The notes under the pieces were generated by a model. It searched no databases, was not told the DNA's origin, and worked only from the letters and a program-made list of their open reading frames with translations. A program made the translations under genes and the position numbers. Of a stretch of 64,000 bases of DNA, positions 47,884 to 55,025 are shown piece by piece. The stretch comes from Robiginitalea myxolifaciens (GTDB taxonomy: Bacteria > Bacteroidota > Bacteroidia > Flavobacteriales > Flavobacteriaceae). The stretch is from positions 523,240 through 587,239 of the forward strand of contig NZ_FOYQ01000001.1 in NCBI RefSeq assembly GCF_900115205.1. Reading direction: 5' to 3'. Positions within the stretch are counted from its first letter, which is position 1; each line of letters starts with the position of its first letter.

Positions 47884-48336
47884 CTATTCGCGGTTTCGGC
47901 TGTCGATCCAAATGGTCACCGGCCCATCGTTGGTAAGACTTACTTTCATGTCGGCACCAAAGGCTCCGGTGCCGACTGGTTTCCCGATCAGGGCTTCCAT
48001 ATCGGAAACAAAGGCTTCGTATTGGGGTATGGCTTCCTCGGGACCGGCAGCTTTGATATAGGAAGGACGGTTGCCTTTCTTCGTTGCGGCCAGGAGGGTA
48101 AACTGGCTTACCACAATGAGGTCCCCTCCGGTATCGAGCAGCGAATGATTCATAACCCCATCCGGATCATTGAAAATTCTTAGGTTAGCCACTTTACGGG
48201 CCAGCCACTCCCGGTCCGCTGCAGTGTCCCCTTCAGCAACACCCAACAATACGAGTAATCCGGGACCTATGGCGCTTACCGTTGTTCCCTCAATGACCAC
48301 ACTGGCCTGGCTTACCCGCTGAATTAGTGCTCTCAT
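47884..48336 (-). CDS. dtd: D-aminoacyl-tRNA deacylase Dtd
   Basis: The 150-residue protein starts MRALIQRVSQASV, as usual for Dtd, and has the active-site SQFTL motif in VVSQFTLLA and the cis-Gly-Pro motif in TNDGPVTIWIDS. It removes D-amino acids (and glycine) mischarged on tRNA. The gene lies 30 bp after rsgA on the same strand. Confidence 0.96.
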   Translation of the reverse strand: MRALIQRVSQASVVIEGTTVSAIGPGLLVLLGVAEGDTAADREWLARKVANLRIFNDPDGVMNHSLLDTGGDLIVVSQFTLLAATKKGNRPSYIKAAGPEEAIPQYEAFVSDMEALIGKPVGTGAFGADMKVSLTNDGPVTIWIDSRNRE

Positions 48337-48366
48337 TTGTTTGCCTTTCCTGTACTTCCAGATTAA

Positions 48367-49317
48367 TCAGGTCTCCTGGAAGGGATCCTGGCGATAGGTA
48401 TCGTCTTCTTCAGTTATAATCTGCACATAGGACCGATACCGGCTCATAGCCAATTCCCCGGATTCCAAGGCTTCCTTGACGGCGCACTTGGGCTCGTCCA
48501 GGTGAAGGCAATTGTTAAACTTGCACTCCCCCTTGAGGGCGAAGATTTCCGGAAAGTAATCTCCGATTTCCTCCACCTCCATATCCACTAGCCCGAAACC
48601 TTTAATTCCCGGGGTATCGATAATGCGTCCCCCGAAGCTCAAATCATACATCTGGGCGAAGGTGGTGGTGTGCTGTCCCTGGCGATGTGTTTCGGATATT
48701 TCAGAGGTTTTCAAATCCAACTCCGGGGCCAGGCGATTGATCAGGGTAGACTTCCCTACACCGGAGTGCCCGGCAAACATGGATGTCTGATCTACCATCA
48801 TGGCTTTGACCCGGTCTACGTGCTTCCCGGATTTAGCCGAAATCGCAAGGCAGTCATAGCCGATTTCCCGGTAGAGTCCCATCAGATAGGCAATTTCGTC
48901 CTTGTCTTCCTCGCTGGCGACATCGGTTTTATTAAATAGCAGGGTACAGGGAATTTCATAAGCCTCGGCAGTGGCCAGAAAACGATCGATAAAAATCGTG
49001 TAAGTCTTGGGATTATCCAGGGTTATCAGTAAAAATACCCGGTCAATATTAGCCGCGATAATATGCGTCTGGGCAGAGAGTTTAACTGATTTACGGATAA
49101 TATAATTCTGCCGTTCCAGGATTTCATCAATATGGCCAACGGTTTCATCGCCCAGGGTTTCCAAGCGGAAGCGCACCTGGTCGCCAACAGCTATCGGATT
49201 GGTGCTTTTAATACCTTCTATTCGGAAACGCCCTTTAATCCTGCAATCGTAGAATTGGCCATCTTCGGCTTTCACCTGATACCAGCTTCCTGTCGATTTA
49301 TAAACTATTCCCTGCAT
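48367..49317 (-). CDS. rsgA: Ribosome small-subunit GTPase RsgA
   Basis: From the ATG at 49317 the protein has 316 residues and starts MQGIVYKSTGSWYQVKAEDG, an OB fold. The GTPase motifs are in circularly permuted order: G4 FNKTD, then G1 GHSGVGKSTLIN, then G3 DTPG. The zinc site CKFNNCLHLDEPKC is complete. It checks late 30S assembly. Ten upstream codons in the same frame lack the family pattern and are left out. Confidence 0.96.
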   Translation of the reverse strand: MQGIVYKSTGSWYQVKAEDGQFYDCRIKGRFRIEGIKSTNPIAVGDQVRFRLETLGDETVGHIDEILERQNYIIRKSVKLSAQTHIIAANIDRVFLLITLDNPKTYTIFIDRFLATAEAYEIPCTLLFNKTDVASEEDKDEIAYLMGLYREIGYDCLAISAKSGKHVDRVKAMMVDQTSMFAGHSGVGKSTLINRLAPELDLKTSEISETHRQGQHTTTFAQMYDLSFGGRIIDTPGIKGFGLVDMEVEEIGDYFPEIFALKGECKFNNCLHLDEPKCAVKEALESGELAMSRYRSYVQIITEEDDTYRQDPFQET

Positions 49318-49401
49318 TTGATACGTTGCGGCTTCGCAAAATAACAATTAATGGTTAACGTTGTAGTCGTAAAATAACCAACATTATCAAACCCAGAAAT
49401 T

Positions 49402-50669: not shown

Positions 50670-51758
50670 TTACACCTGGGCGTTGATAATTTTCTCCTGG
50701 TGGTTGATAGACTCCTGGTGGATAGCTTTGAACATCCTGAGGACAAATTCCTCGCTCAGGCCATGGGCCTCCCCTTCCAGGATCATACTTCCCAGTATGG
50801 CATTCCACCGACCAGTCTGAAGCACCGCCACGTTACGGGACTTCTTTAATTCCCCGATGGCATCGGATACCTTCATTCTTTTGCCCAGTAAATCGATCAG
50901 TTGGTTGTCCAGAACGTCGATCTGGGCCCGTAGGTTGCTGATGGCGCTGTTGTATTCGGCCTCCTGATCGGTCTCCTTTCGAATCCGCAGGTCGTCCATG
51001 ATCTGAACCAGACGGTCCGGGGTTACCTGTTGAGCGGCATCGCTCCAGGCATTATCGGGATCCCAGTGGGTTTCGATCATGAGTCCGTCAAAATTCAGGT
51101 CAAGAGCGGTCTGGCTTACGTCGAAAATGAGGTCGCGACGACCACTGATATGCGAGGGATCGTTGATCAACGGCAGGTCTGGAAAACGTGTCTGCAATTC
51201 AATGGCCAGCTGCCATTCCGGAATATTCCGGTACTTGGTCTTCTGATAGGTGGAAAATCCGCGGTGGATTACCCCCAGGTTAGGGATATCTGCTTTATAC
51301 AGACGCTCCACGGCCCCAAGCCATAGCGAAAGATCGGGATTGACCGGGTTCTTGATCAGTACAATTTTATCCGTTCCCTGCAGGGCATCGGCGATTTCCT
51401 GAACGATAAAAGGGCTAACGGTAGATCGGGCTCCGATCCAAAGCAAGTCTACATCGTGCTCCAGGGCCAGGTCTACATGGGCTTTGTTGGCGACCTCGGT
51501 CGCGGTTTTAAGTCCTGTTTCCTCCTTGACCTTCTGCAGCCATTTCAGTCCGATGGCACCAACCCCTTCAAAATTGCCCGGGCGGGTACGTGGCTTCCAG
51601 ATCCCGGCCCGATAGTAATTTACATCGGTATCTTTGAGCTGGTGTGCAATCTTCAACACCTGCTCTTCGGTTTCTGCGCTGCAGGGCCCGGCGATAACCA
51701 GGGGGTGCGGTAGGTTCATATCATCCAGCCAACGGCGGAGTTCTTTTGAATTTTCCAT
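50670..51758 (-). CDS. Bifunctional DAHP synthase / chorismate mutase (type II)
   Basis: The 362-residue protein fuses a DAHP synthase of the KDOPS-like type (residues about 1-260: PHPLVIAGPCSAETEEQVL, YRAGIWKPRTRPGNFEG, PLINDPSHISGRRDLI) to a chorismate mutase domain (about 270-360: ISNLRAQIDVLDNQLIDLLGKRMKVSDAIG). It catalyses both the first step of the shikimate pathway and chorismate to prephenate. Fusion often allows feedback inhibition by prephenate or chorismate. It is the last gene of the aromatic operon, 5 bp after tyrA. Confidence 0.95.
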   Translation of the reverse strand: MENSKELRRWLDDMNLPHPLVIAGPCSAETEEQVLKIAHQLKDTDVNYYRAGIWKPRTRPGNFEGVGAIGLKWLQKVKEETGLKTATEVANKAHVDLALEHDVDLLWIGARSTVSPFIVQEIADALQGTDKIVLIKNPVNPDLSLWLGAVERLYKADIPNLGVIHRGFSTYQKTKYRNIPEWQLAIELQTRFPDLPLINDPSHISGRRDLIFDVSQTALDLNFDGLMIETHWDPDNAWSDAAQQVTPDRLVQIMDDLRIRKETDQEAEYNSAISNLRAQIDVLDNQLIDLLGKRMKVSDAIGELKKSRNVAVLQTGRWNAILGSMILEGEAHGLSEEFVLRMFKAIHQESINHQEKIINAQV

Positions 51759-51763
51759 AGTAT

Positions 51764-52627
51764 TTATTCCTGTTTCTGCTGTGGTATTCCTTTTAAAATA
51801 TCTTTTATACGGTTGGTATTATCCATTTGACGGTAGAGATCCTCATAGCGGTTTTCACGCAACTGATCACTAAATTCCTGTAAGTTCGCGATGTACTCAT
51901 CGAGCGTTTCCAGGACGTTTTCCCGGTTTTGCTCAAAAATCGGGGTCCACATGGCCGGGGAACTTTTTGCCAGGCGTACGGTACTTTCAAAACCACTGCC
52001 TGCCATATCAAAGATGTCCCGTTCGTTCTGTTCTTTTTCGATCACTGTTTTCCCCAACATAAAGGAGGAAATATGCGAGAGATGGCTTACATAGGCGATG
52101 TGCCTATCGTGGGCCTCCGGGCTCATATAACGGATGCGCATCCCCAGGTGCCGAAAGAGTTCCAGGGCGCGCTCCTGAATGCGAAAAGCCGTTTGTTCCA
52201 CCTCGCAAATTATATTGACCTTCCCCTGAAACAACCCGCTGATCGCTGCATCAGGACCGGTGAACTCGGTTCCTGCAATCGGGTGGCAGGCCAGGAAATT
52301 GCGGCGCTTTTCATGCCCGCTTACCGCCTGGCATATCGGTGCCTTCGTAGATCCCGCGTCGATGACCAGGGTCTCTTCCCCAACTTTCGCAAGTAAACCG
52401 GGTAATTCGCGTACCACGTGATCTACTGGAATACTGACAATTACCAGGTCGGCAGTGGCCAAATCAGCCGGCTCGGCCGGGGCATCGATCAGGCCCAGGC
52501 TAAGGGCCTGGTCCAGGTGATCCGGGTTCTTATCCATACCCAGAACGGATGGTCTCTCCGGTAATCCGCGCAAATCACGAACCAGAGAACCCCCGATCAA
52601 CCCAATGCCAATGACAACTATCTTCAT
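51764..52627 (-). CDS. tyrA: Prephenate dehydrogenase
   Basis: The 287-residue protein starts MKIVVIGIGLIGGSLVRDLRG, an NAD(P)-binding Rossmann motif, and has ACHPIAGTEFTGPD and the prephenate-binding region HDRHIAYVSHLSHISSFML with the catalytic His. It converts prephenate to 4-hydroxyphenylpyruvate for tyrosine. There is no ACT domain, so feedback control may be at transcription level. It overlaps the aminotransferase gene by 4 nt (ATGA). Confidence 0.94.
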   Translation of the reverse strand: MKIVVIGIGLIGGSLVRDLRGLPERPSVLGMDKNPDHLDQALSLGLIDAPAEPADLATADLVIVSIPVDHVVRELPGLLAKVGEETLVIDAGSTKAPICQAVSGHEKRRNFLACHPIAGTEFTGPDAAISGLFQGKVNIICEVEQTAFRIQERALELFRHLGMRIRYMSPEAHDRHIAYVSHLSHISSFMLGKTVIEKEQNERDIFDMAGSGFESTVRLAKSSPAMWTPIFEQNRENVLETLDEYIANLQEFSDQLRENRYEDLYRQMDNTNRIKDILKGIPQQKQE

Positions 52628-53808
52628 GCTTTTTCAATGCTTTTTGAGAACGGCAGGTCCGAACCAACTCGTCGGAGTGCCTCCCGGATTTTTTCCTCGG
52701 GTACGCAGAGTGAAAACCGGATATACCCTTCGCCCTGATGGCCGAAAATGGTTCCCGGAGCCACAAACATATCGTATTGCTCCAGCAGTAAATCGATACT
52801 GGTTTCAGAATCCGGGCTCCCTTCGGGCAATCGTGCCCAAACGAACAGGCCTGTAGTATCTGCCTCATAGGTACACCCCAGAGCTGTTGCCAATTCCTGA
52901 ACAGCACGGCGTCGCAGTCGATAAATTTCGTCTTGTGATTCATACCAGGAGGCATCGCAGCGCAAGGCGGCAATAGCCCCTTGCTGGACCCCGTAAAACA
53001 TACCGGAATCCATATTGCTCTTAACCTTGAGCACACTTTTCAGTAAGTGACCTTCCCCCACAAGCATTCCCACGCGCCATCCGGCCATGTTAAAGGTTTT
53101 GCTCAGGGAGTTCAGCTCCAGGGCTACCCCGGCCGCGCCAGGCACGGATAAAATGCTCAGGGGTTCTCCTCCCAGGATAAAACTATATGGGTTATCGTTG
53201 ATCAACAATATGTTGTGCTCCCGGGCAAATGCGATGAGGCGCGTAAACTTTTCGCGGTTGGCGCTTGCCCCGGTAGGCATGTGCGGATAACTAACCCACA
53301 TCAATTTCACCTTGCTGAGATCTTCCTTCCCGAGCGCTTCCAGATCCGGGAACCAATCCATTTCTGCGGAGAGGATGTACTTACGCGGAACCCCACCGCT
53401 GAGGGCGGTAACCGAACTGTACGTCGGGTAGCCGGGATCCGGAATCAGGGCTTCATCCCCCGGGTTCAAAAAGGCCATACTTATGTGCATGATTCCTTCC
53501 TTGGACCCCATAAGCGGCAGGACTTCAGTACCCGGATCTAACTTGGTCCCGTAATGCGAGGCGTAAAATTCGGTGATGCTCTGGCGCAGTTCAGGTAAGC
53601 CCTGATAGCTCTGGTATTGATGGGCTCCGGGATGCTCCAGCCCATCCTTCAGGGCATCGGTAACCCCTTTAGGGGGTGCCAGGTCAGGACTCCCAATACC
53701 CAGGTTTATTACGGGCCTCCCATTGGCAACACGCTCCCGAACTTCTTTGAGTTTGCGGGAGAAATAGTATTCCTTAACGGTATCGAGACGTTTGGCTTCC
53801 GCTATCAT
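52624..53808 (-). CDS. Pyridoxal-phosphate-dependent class I/II aminotransferase
   Basis: The 394-residue fold-type I aminotransferase has LGIGSPDLAPPKGV near the start, the substrate region YPTYSSVTALSGG, the PLP Lys in LNSLSKTFNMAGWRVG and the late RFSLCVPEEKI. Its place between pheA and tyrA, overlapping both by 4 nt, indicates that it makes phenylalanine and tyrosine from phenylpyruvate and hydroxyphenylpyruvate. LL-diaminopimelate aminotransferases look similar, so sequence alone would not decide the substrate. Confidence 0.88.
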   Translation of the reverse strand: MIAEAKRLDTVKEYYFSRKLKEVRERVANGRPVINLGIGSPDLAPPKGVTDALKDGLEHPGAHQYQSYQGLPELRQSITEFYASHYGTKLDPGTEVLPLMGSKEGIMHISMAFLNPGDEALIPDPGYPTYSSVTALSGGVPRKYILSAEMDWFPDLEALGKEDLSKVKLMWVSYPHMPTGASANREKFTRLIAFAREHNILLINDNPYSFILGGEPLSILSVPGAAGVALELNSLSKTFNMAGWRVGMLVGEGHLLKSVLKVKSNMDSGMFYGVQQGAIAALRCDASWYESQDEIYRLRRRAVQELATALGCTYEADTTGLFVWARLPEGSPDSETSIDLLLEQYDMFVAPGTIFGHQGEGYIRFSLCVPEEKIREALRRVGSDLPFSKSIEKA

Positions 53809-54635
53809 TTTCTCGCGTTTTTATATTCCCCGAGGACTTGAAAATCCTCGCTCATTATTTCCAGCAGCGACTTGGCTTTGGCAAAATGGGCATACTCCTC
53901 AAAGGTGATGTCCACAAAAAATGCATATTTCCAGGGCGTCTCGATTACGGGTAACGACTGGATCTTGGTCAGGTTCAGGTTGCAATCGCTCATAACATTG
54001 AGGACGGTCGCCAGGCTCCCCCGCTTGTGATCGGTTAAAAACCGGATGGAAGCCTTGTCGATTTCCTCCTGCGGCAACACCTTGTTTTCCCGTTTGAGAA
54101 TTACAAAGCGAGTTGCATTGTTTTTGATGGTCTGAATCTCTGAGGATAGGATCTCTAACCCGTAGAGTTCAGCGGCCCGTACTGGGGCAATCGCAGCGAT
54201 CCCCTGCAAATTTTGTTGTTGTATCCTGCGAGCGGTTTCAGCCGTATCCACATCTTCCACCATTTTGAGCCCCTTTTGTTTTTTAAGGTATTCCCGACAC
54301 TGCAACAGGGCCATGGGGTGGCTGTGTACTTCCCGTATGGCCTCGAGTTGCTGCCCGGGTAGGGCCATCAGGTGGTGGTGGACATTGAGGTAGTACTCCC
54401 CGATGATATGCAGACTGTTGTCGTGAATCAGCGCATAATTCGGAATAATTGAGCCCGCAATGGAATTCTCAATAGCCATGATCCCCTGACCGGCTTCCCC
54501 CTCGAGCAGGCTATCGACCAGTTCGTGAAAGGAGAGGCAGGGATGAAGGGCAACTTCCTTTCCGTAAAAAGCCTCCGCAACCATGTGGTGATTGGACCCC
54601 GGAATTCCCTGTATGGCTATTTTTTGTGTTTCCAC
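53805..54635 (-). CDS. pheA: Prephenate dehydratase with ACT domain
   Basis: The 276-residue protein (from GTG at 54635) has the dehydratase domain (about 1-180, with IAIQGIPGSNHH, GIMAIENSIAGSI and NNATRFVILKREN) and an ACT domain (about 195-270, GSLATVLNVMSDCNLNLTKIQSLP with a C-terminal ITFEEY). It makes phenylpyruvate from prephenate, and the ACT domain senses phenylalanine. I chose the GTG because homologues begin with a short basic run before IAIQG. Codons upstream reach into the terminator hairpin of the leader. It is the first structural gene after an attenuator. Confidence 0.93.
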   Translation of the reverse strand: METQKIAIQGIPGSNHHMVAEAFYGKEVALHPCLSFHELVDSLLEGEAGQGIMAIENSIAGSIIPNYALIHDNSLHIIGEYYLNVHHHLMALPGQQLEAIREVHSHPMALLQCREYLKKQKGLKMVEDVDTAETARRIQQQNLQGIAAIAPVRAAELYGLEILSSEIQTIKNNATRFVILKRENKVLPQEEIDKASIRFLTDHKRGSLATVLNVMSDCNLNLTKIQSLPVIETPWKYAFFVDITFEEYAHFAKAKSLLEIMSEDFQVLGEYKNARK

Positions 54636-54684: not shown

Positions 54685-54714
54685 AAAAAAAAAGTCCCGT
54701 TTCAAAAACGGGAC
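54685..54714 (-). terminator. Attenuator terminator in the leader of the aromatic amino-acid operon
   Basis: On the minus strand GTCCCGTTT and AAACGGGAC form a perfect 9-bp stem with a 3-nt loop (54714-54694), followed at once by nine T (54693-54685). It lies between the leader ORF stop (54738) and pheA (54635), so transcripts that end here never reach the structural genes. Its 5' arm can instead pair with the end of the leader ORF. Confidence 0.92.
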
Positions 54715-54752
54715 CTTGTTATATCGTTGTAGTATATCTAAAACGGTCCCGT
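54708..54752 (-). promoter_or_regulatory. Antiterminator pairing of the aromatic operon leader
   Basis: ACGGGACC in the leader ORF (54752-54745, codons 20-22) is exactly complementary over 8 nt to GGTCCCGT (54715-54708), the 5' arm of the terminator. Pairing of these two blocks the terminator. A ribosome that reaches the leader stop covers the first segment and lets the terminator form. The mechanism is inferred from sequence. Confidence 0.8.
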
Positions 54753-54809
54753 ACCTCTCCCAAAAAAGAAGTAGAAATAAAATCCGTTCCAGAAATACGT
54801 ACGTGTCAT
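54738..54809 (-). CDS. Aromatic-rich leader peptide of the pheA operon (attenuation)
   Basis: An ATG at 54809 opens a 23-codon frame that ends at TAG (54740-54738). The peptide begins MTRTYFWNG and continues FYFYFFFGRG, ending TGPF. It has Phe at 6, 10, 12, 14, 15, 16 and 23, Tyr at 5, 11 and 13 and Trp at 7, so 11 of 23 residues are aromatic. An A-rich stretch (AACTTAAAGAAA) precedes the ATG. The composition, position and following hairpins fit a regulatory peptide whose translation senses charged tRNA-Phe and possibly tRNA-Tyr and tRNA-Trp. It is too short to be a protein with its own function. Nothing in the sequence shows translation directly, but all parts agree. Confidence 0.88.
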   Translation of the reverse strand: MTRTYFWNGFYFYFFFGRGTGPF

Positions 54810-55025
54810 TTTCTTTAAGTTTGGGGCTAATGTAGCCAATAATTTTTAAAAGCCGGAGGACGTCTATTTTTTTTGAGAAAAAAATATAAATGCCTGTTTG
54901 TGTTGCATTTCATAAAGCGATTTGGCCGCTTTGGTGTAAAATCCTCAGCGATCGGAAAGATGAGATCCTGGAATGGAGTTGGCCATGAAATGCTGTAAAT
55001 CCCTATTTTTACCTAAAATTTTGCC

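Follow-up and report, generated by a model that had tools for sequence, protein, structure and literature searches.

A putative leader-peptide attenuator with phenylalanine and tyrosine codons before the pheA operon of Robiginitalea myxolifaciens and its relatives in the Flavobacteriaceae

In E. coli and other gammaproteobacteria, pheA is preceded by the pheA (pheL) attenuator, which consists of a Phe-rich leader, a terminator and a competing anti-terminator. The element described here lies in the window, by which we mean the whole stretch of 64,000 nucleotides of Robiginitalea myxolifaciens DNA that was analysed, and resembles the pheL attenuator in having a Phe-rich leader and a terminator with an anti-terminator before pheA. 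It departs from pheL in its mixed Phe/Tyr control codons, in an operon which adds tyrA, an aminotransferase and a DAHP synthase, in the A-rich stretch before the ATG and in the position of the anti-terminator arm within the last leader codons. On the window the Rfam model Phe_leader (RF01859) scored 23.6 bits against a gathering threshold of 55, and Trp_leader (RF00513) scored 24.1 bits against 41. Classical trp attenuators, for example those of Actinobacteria as presented in the relevant part of PMC1262725, share with our element the regulatory codons and an anti-terminator and terminator with common complementary segments, but the classical trp leaders use Trp codons, unlike the Phe/Tyr leader of the window. 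According to the part of PMC2965389 that deals with this point, in 2010 no such leaders were known outside Proteobacteria and Actinobacteria before the Firmicutes case which that paper itself describes.

Among the closest known cases is Flavobacterium psychrophilum, in which strong signs of leader-peptide attenuation in front of amino-acid operons were reported in 2021, and whose pheA and hisG 5' elements are conserved in other Flavobacteriaceae genera and have no Rfam hits (PMC9723704, section on these elements). Its pheA element shares family and gene with ours, and the section in question gives no anatomy, codons or co-variation for the pheA element nor names it as a leader-peptide case (PMC9723704). 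The statement of the earlier note on this DNA, that no description in flavobacteria was known, has thus been overtaken, as that section flags both the attenuation clues and the conserved pheA element. In Bacteroides thetaiotaomicron, of the same phylum as the window, leader-like sORFs occur in long 5' UTRs, the example given in the part of PMC7366714 concerned preceding a hypothetical protein, with no aromatic operon named there. In Acholeplasma, uORFC-13-1 stands before the aromatic-pathway gene aroF as a U-run uORF with at least one Phe codon and an adjoining intrinsic terminator; phylum and gene differ from those of the window, and the two are likened by the description in the pertinent part of PMC8632094 and not by sequence. 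The kind of mechanism is therefore classical, and the family element has already been flagged in one flavobacterium. The texts consulted give neither the layout of the element nor its codon rule, its co-variation or its spread as set out below; Lopatovskaya et al. 2010 and Vitreschak et al. 2004 may cover Bacteroidetes.

The genes downstream of the element are the following.

53805..54635, minus strand: pheA, prephenate dehydratase (Pfam PF00800), with a probable GTG start placed by comparison with relatives
52624..53808, minus strand: class I/II aminotransferase (Pfam PF00155), in conserved order
51764..52627, minus strand: tyrA, prephenate dehydrogenase (Pfam PF02153, PF20463), in conserved order
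50670..51758, minus strand: DAHP synthase fused to chorismate mutase (Pfam PF00793, PF01817), in conserved order

The Pfam assignments fit Phe/Tyr biosynthesis, and the order of the four genes is kept in 69/69 full-length related loci. A program-made list of open reading frames puts the pheA start at TTG 54686; GTG 54635 is the likelier translation start judging from sequence, since the PheA proteins of relatives begin near MKPxRIAI. Downstream of the aromatic operon lie rsgA and a D-Tyr-tRNA deacylase gene (window 47884-49347); at least 51 of 80 loci have rsgA after the operon on the same strand, and at least 14 of 80 have the deacylase gene, both counts being lower bounds with flanks of at most 5 kb.

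Between these genes and their predicted promoter we recognized the following parts, here in the order of transcription.

54827..54834, minus strand: TACATTAG, predicted promoter -7-like element, 5/6 against TAnnTTTG, 17 nt before the leader ATG
54738..54809, minus strand: leader peptide ORF, MTRTYFWNGFYFYFFFGRGTGPF and stop, from translation, kept in genus and family
54784..54802, minus strand: arm 1 of a predicted protector (1:2) stem, from folding, a swap control and, for its inner part, RNAalifold
54762..54782, minus strand: codons 10-16, reading F Y F Y F F F, as putative control codons, from position-specific Phe/Tyr conservation and the ribosome-position model
54747..54777, minus strand: inner hairpin spanning the Phe run as well as arm 2, predicted without a ribosome (minimum free energy)
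54745..54752, minus strand: arm 2, anti-terminator 5' arm ACGGGACC, from sequence and co-variation with arm 3
54729..54746, minus strand: predicted pairing partner of arm 1 on its 3' side, made up of the last codons, the stop and the bases after it, from folding, RNAalifold and swaps
54706..54717, minus strand: arm 3, terminator 5' arm AAGGTCCCGTTT, from sequence, folding and family comparison
54691..54702, minus strand: arm 4, terminator 3' arm AAACGGGACTTT, from sequence, folding and family comparison
54685..54693, minus strand: terminator T-run of nine T, overlapping the end of arm 4, from sequence

The leader ORF has 23 codons (54809-54738, minus strand), among them 7 Phe, 3 Tyr and 1 Trp, just as had been claimed, and ends in the stop codon TAG (54740-54738, minus strand); it is thus a short leader with clustered codons for the end products of the operon, Phe and Tyr, and an intrinsic terminator stands between it and pheA. 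The terminator stem comprises 12 bp including one G-U pair, has the loop TTG, starts 20 nt past the leader stop and is predicted at -14.8 kcal/mol. The hairpin with its nine T was correctly noticed in the earlier note, but the perfect 9 bp described there are the core of this longer stem, and the core lies 23 nt from the stop. The 8-nt ACGGGACC in the last leader codons (54752-54745) is, as had also been seen, the exact complement of GGTCCCGT in the terminator 5' arm, and the duplex of arms 2 and 3 is predicted at -16.4 kcal/mol. Judging from the sequence and the model below, this anti-terminator would be mutually exclusive with the terminator and would be freed by a stalled ribosome. Folding of the intervals 54825-54680, 54772-54680 and 54740-54680 gave z values of -5.2, -3.21 and -4.35, and 0/200 shuffles folded as well for each of the three. 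Over the leader region no Rfam family reached its gathering score; among the eight sub-threshold matches (E up to 5) there was a PyrR site (22.6 bits against a gathering score of 54) and neither a T-box nor a metabolite riboswitch. A covariance model built from an alignment of related loci (A3, see below) scored 111 bits at pheA and at most 32.7 bits at eight other places of the same genome; seven of these eight were inspected by script and no leader was found in any.

We take TAnnTTTG to be the -7 promoter consensus of Bacteroidota. Within 55 nt of the leader ATG, its best match was 6/6 in 24 and 5/6 in 98 of 124 one-per-genus loci, against 1 and 59, respectively, in control windows, and the median distance to the ATG was 17 nt. 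An A occupies position -3 of the leader start in 98/124 loci, and the part of PMC6847099 on initiation describes an A at -3 as a positive initiation determinant in Flavobacterium johnsoniae and Bacteroidota mRNAs as being without Shine-Dalgarno sequences.

PheA was found in 130 of 149 genomes of a family sample with one genome per genus. We examined 207 pheA upstream regions, namely the best 80 of 538 confirmed relatives and 127 one-per-genus loci, which include one duplicate pair and two regions (L045, L066) that end at contig ends. A strict detector, which requires a short ORF with at least 7 aromatic codons (at least 25%) and a hairpin with T-run within 60 nt past its stop, was positive in 202/207 of these regions, against 3/1938 control windows elsewhere in the same loci and 1/207 reverse complements. 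Leader and terminator were present in 124/127 one-per-genus loci of the first set, and in 125/130 when three later regions are included, so that the search upstream of pheA in other Flavobacteriaceae which the earlier note had proposed has returned the aromatic ORF and hairpin in nearly every sampled genus with PheA. In the stretch examined, three upstream regions (L179, L208, L272) have neither such a leader nor a matching terminator. In L146 a typical AAAAGTCTCGAT hairpin lies about 500 nt upstream of pheA behind inserted-looking repeated segments, and its leader could therefore lie beyond the 600 nt covered; in L271 the leader start is truncated at a contig end, so that the locus fails the detector, with leader and terminator visible by eye.

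Outside the family, pheA loci were taken from 17 of 24 genomes of the same class, 0 of 2 of the same order and 20 of 127 others with a PheA match. Among these loci the script found both parts in 12/17 of the same class and in 4/20 of the more distant ones in the phylum. By eye, leader and terminator can both be seen in L223, where the T-run is short; L232 has just an aromatic ORF. The script matches in L222 and L254 were discounted, as their ORFs are not rich in aromatic codons and their hairpins are 409 and 288 nt away from the gene. The four of the 20 loci from outside the class that have an aromatic leader with terminator upstream of pheA (L237-L240) encode a PheA more like that of the window (43-45%) than is usual at such a distance; gene and leader were possibly transferred together.

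Co-variation between terminator and anti-terminator, another check suggested beforehand, was observed between genera, where arms 2, 3 and 4 change together (for example CGGGAC/GTCCCG, CGAGAC/GTCTCG and CCGGGTT/AACCCGG). The 6-nt core of arm 3 is fully paired by the end of its own leader in 93/124 loci, as compared with 27.8% for swapped leaders from loci with other cores, 435/6200 shuffled leaders and 63/1233 other upstream windows; the fully paired partner is missing in 31/124 loci, partly from a crude choice of core. Shuffling the leader of each single locus is a less sharp test, in which at most 1/100 shuffles were as good in only 96/202 loci. The leader C-termini are unrelated across genera (GTGLL, NETLYV, KYRVVM, DRIGSVV), and in some loci (L118, L120) arm 2 extends through and past the stop codon, so that what is kept is the RNA match and not the peptide. 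RNAalifold on alignment A3 found two-sided changes in 7/9 predicted pairs of the terminator; A3 holds 74 of 96 candidate sequences and describes the close clade, because near-duplicates and the most divergent leaders were dropped from it.

The earlier note had taken the design, with one competing segment only, to be simpler than the classical one. In the window, a 1:2 protector stem between codons 3-9 and the stop region also folds (predicted duplex -19.5 kcal/mol), so that the design is no simpler than the classical, and the simpler reading was rejected for the window on this fold, with support from the swaps and in part from RNAalifold. In the fold without a ribosome, the 1:2 stem and the inner hairpin together engage arm 2, the inner hairpin pairing 54777-54765 with 54760-54752 and 54750-54747, for which RNAalifold shows a related shorter helix. 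The gapped duplex energy of the 1:2 stem was better for a locus's own partner than for the mean swapped one in 76/93 close and 84/97 other loci, and the whole stem ranked at or below 0.05 in 24/93 and 26/97, respectively. The ungapped swap test was weak, the own partner falling in the top 5% in 11/105 close and 11/97 other loci for the outer part and in 4/105 and 6/97 for the inner part. Against swaps, the outer part gave p 1.7e-6 in the close clade and p 0.52 in other genera, values which are optimistic because related sequences are not independent. Of the upstream pairs in the RNAalifold structure of the close clade only 2/16 had two-sided changes, and the model placed the state without a ribosome lower than the stalled state by more than 0.1 in only 77/124 loci. 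These results suggest that the 1:2 protector stem is likely to be present in this genus; it is supported in the close clade, and its support in other genera is mixed.

To relate these structures to ribosome position, we used a model in which the transcript is folded up to the terminator loop with the ribosome masked, and which gives the equilibrium of an intermediate, not kinetics; its values are expected pairs/6 in a survey of 124 loci, where they can exceed 1, and pairs/8 in the edge scan of the window. With the ribosome edge at +15, the anti-terminator of the window was predicted with the A-site up to codon 15 and none from codon 17, and the last A-site codon with an anti-terminator value of at least 0.5 shifted from 17 to 14 for edges of +11 to +18, which agrees with the stalling at about codons 10-14 envisaged before. 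P(2:3) was predicted to be 0.38 when no ribosome is present and 0.82-0.99 when one stands at codons 10-15. In the survey, a ribosome placed in the aromatic run left arm 3 more sequestered, by more than 0.1, than one at the stop codon did in 122/124 loci, and the sequestration of arm 3 was at least 0.5 in the run and below 0.2 at the stop in 111/124; the stalled and stop states differed by at most 0.1 in 2/124.

The codons themselves also vary with position relative to arm 2, as seen in a profile of 120 of the 124 loci, four with a duplex score below 13 having been dropped. Of the 480 codons at -8 to -5, 475 were aromatic, namely 326 for Phe, 144 for Tyr and 5 for Trp, and the remaining 5 were not, with TTT 200, TTC 126, TAT 97 and TAC 47 as the Phe and Tyr codons used, while aromatic codons made up 0-2% at -3 to +1. 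The use of all Phe and Tyr synonyms, and the near-absence of aromatics at -3 to +1, point to selection on the decoded amino acid and on its distance from the arm. Combined together, co-variation, codon placement and the ribosome-position model support the leader-peptide attenuation by competition of terminator and anti-terminator which had been proposed from the window alone, and we consider the element, on its sequence and modelled folding, to be very probably a ribosome-mediated transcription attenuator.

In the mechanism that we propose, the leader would be translated while being transcribed. If Phe or Tyr were short, the ribosome would stall in codons about 10-15 and disrupt the protector stem, arm 2 (54752-54745) would be freed and, while arm 4 is still to be synthesized, would pair with arm 3 (54717-54706), and this pairing would let the polymerase read into pheA, the aminotransferase, tyrA and the DAHP synthase. 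If both amino acids were plentiful, the ribosome at the stop codon would mask arm 2, arms 3 and 4 would form the terminator, and transcription would end at about 54685. With no ribosome, arm 2 would be partly held in the 1:2 stem and inner hairpin, favouring termination in this species. Translation, stalling, termination and the amino-acid response in the cell are what we infer.

Two accounts would dispense with stalling at uncharged tRNA. TnaC and SecM are the models of arrest-peptide stalling, in which case the nascent leader would stall the ribosome by binding free Phe or Tyr or by its own sequence, and the strong conservation of the leader peptide within the genus and close clade would fit such a peptide. 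Between genera, however, the C-termini are unrelated and all that persists is Phe and Tyr codons, one interchanging with the other, at a fixed distance from an RNA arm, which makes an arrest peptide most improbable. Equally hard to credit is a plain intergenic terminator, or an RNA switch controlled by a ligand or protein, with the aromatic ORF incidental to U-rich sequence: terminators are common and the leader is U-rich, but codons that differ from a Phe codon by one base and encode a non-aromatic residue (Leu, Ile, Val, Ser, Cys) amount to one ATT at -8 to -5 (1/480), the anti-terminator sits inside the ORF, and no Rfam family reached its gathering score, the eight weaker matches including neither a T-box nor a metabolite riboswitch.

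Which amino acids the proposed attenuator senses is a separate matter, and here we favour, as the probable reading, Phe plus Tyr. Were Phe sensed alone, with Tyr codons as tolerated neighbours (UUY to UAY) of no regulatory role, the excess of Phe over Tyr in codons -8 to -5 and the Phe frequency of 0.81-0.83 at -6 and -5 would be readily explained; Tyr, however, is the commonest residue at -8 (0.57) and reaches 0.30 at -7, and the operon makes Tyr too, so that we hold sensing of Phe alone to be unlikely, though of some weight. Joint sensing of Phe, Tyr and Trp, which had been raised for the window, has lost ground and seems to us rather improbable. In its favour, both the window and many close relatives have Trp at codon 7, Trp has a frequency of 0.28 at -10 and 0.18 at -14, the model permits anti-termination with the A-site at codon 7, and DAHP synthase feeds Trp as well; against it, Trp accounts for 5/480 of the best-placed codons and is variable elsewhere, position 7 being Tyr in two (G001, G005) of eight leaders of the genus, a set of eight to which the window's own belongs, and a leader with Trp-Trp-Trp of its own precedes a trpE-type gene in the same genome.

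This Trp leader, MRNNMVHNWWWSLKSENS and stop, has three consecutive Trp codons, lies at nt 1316-1372 of locus L266 upstream of a PF04715 gene (G000:C3:389270) and has a terminator hairpin 32 nt past its stop. A His leader, MKTTHTHHHLISHAQAR and stop, is found in the same genome upstream of hisG (G000:C2:208304; L265, nt 1212-1265), with a terminator hairpin 29 nt later and a promoter-like element TATTTTTG upstream. By the same simple criteria no leader was found in this genome at ilvD or at a second trpE-like gene. Neither was there any at one of the two homoserine dehydrogenase loci, whereas the other had matches only inside the matched stretch or beyond it.

The analysis provides a full, testable anatomy for an element that had previously been flagged in just one flavobacterium, and shows that the leader accompanies the Phe/Tyr operon across the family and possibly across the class. 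As no Rfam family covers the element at a curated score, it is a candidate for a new Rfam leader family. Since attenuators need a ribosome close behind the polymerase, they are indirect evidence of transcription-translation coupling in Bacteroidota, and we infer such coupling for this phylum with its mRNAs lacking Shine-Dalgarno sequences. That in much of the class around the Flavobacteriaceae the joint operon is under the control of an ancient Phe and Tyr attenuator, its arms rewritten often and its codon distance fixed, is a proposition on which our confidence is evenly divided. If it is true, then, together with the His and Trp leaders, it would mean that ribosome and RNA polymerase stay closely coupled in a phylum that lacks Shine-Dalgarno initiation.
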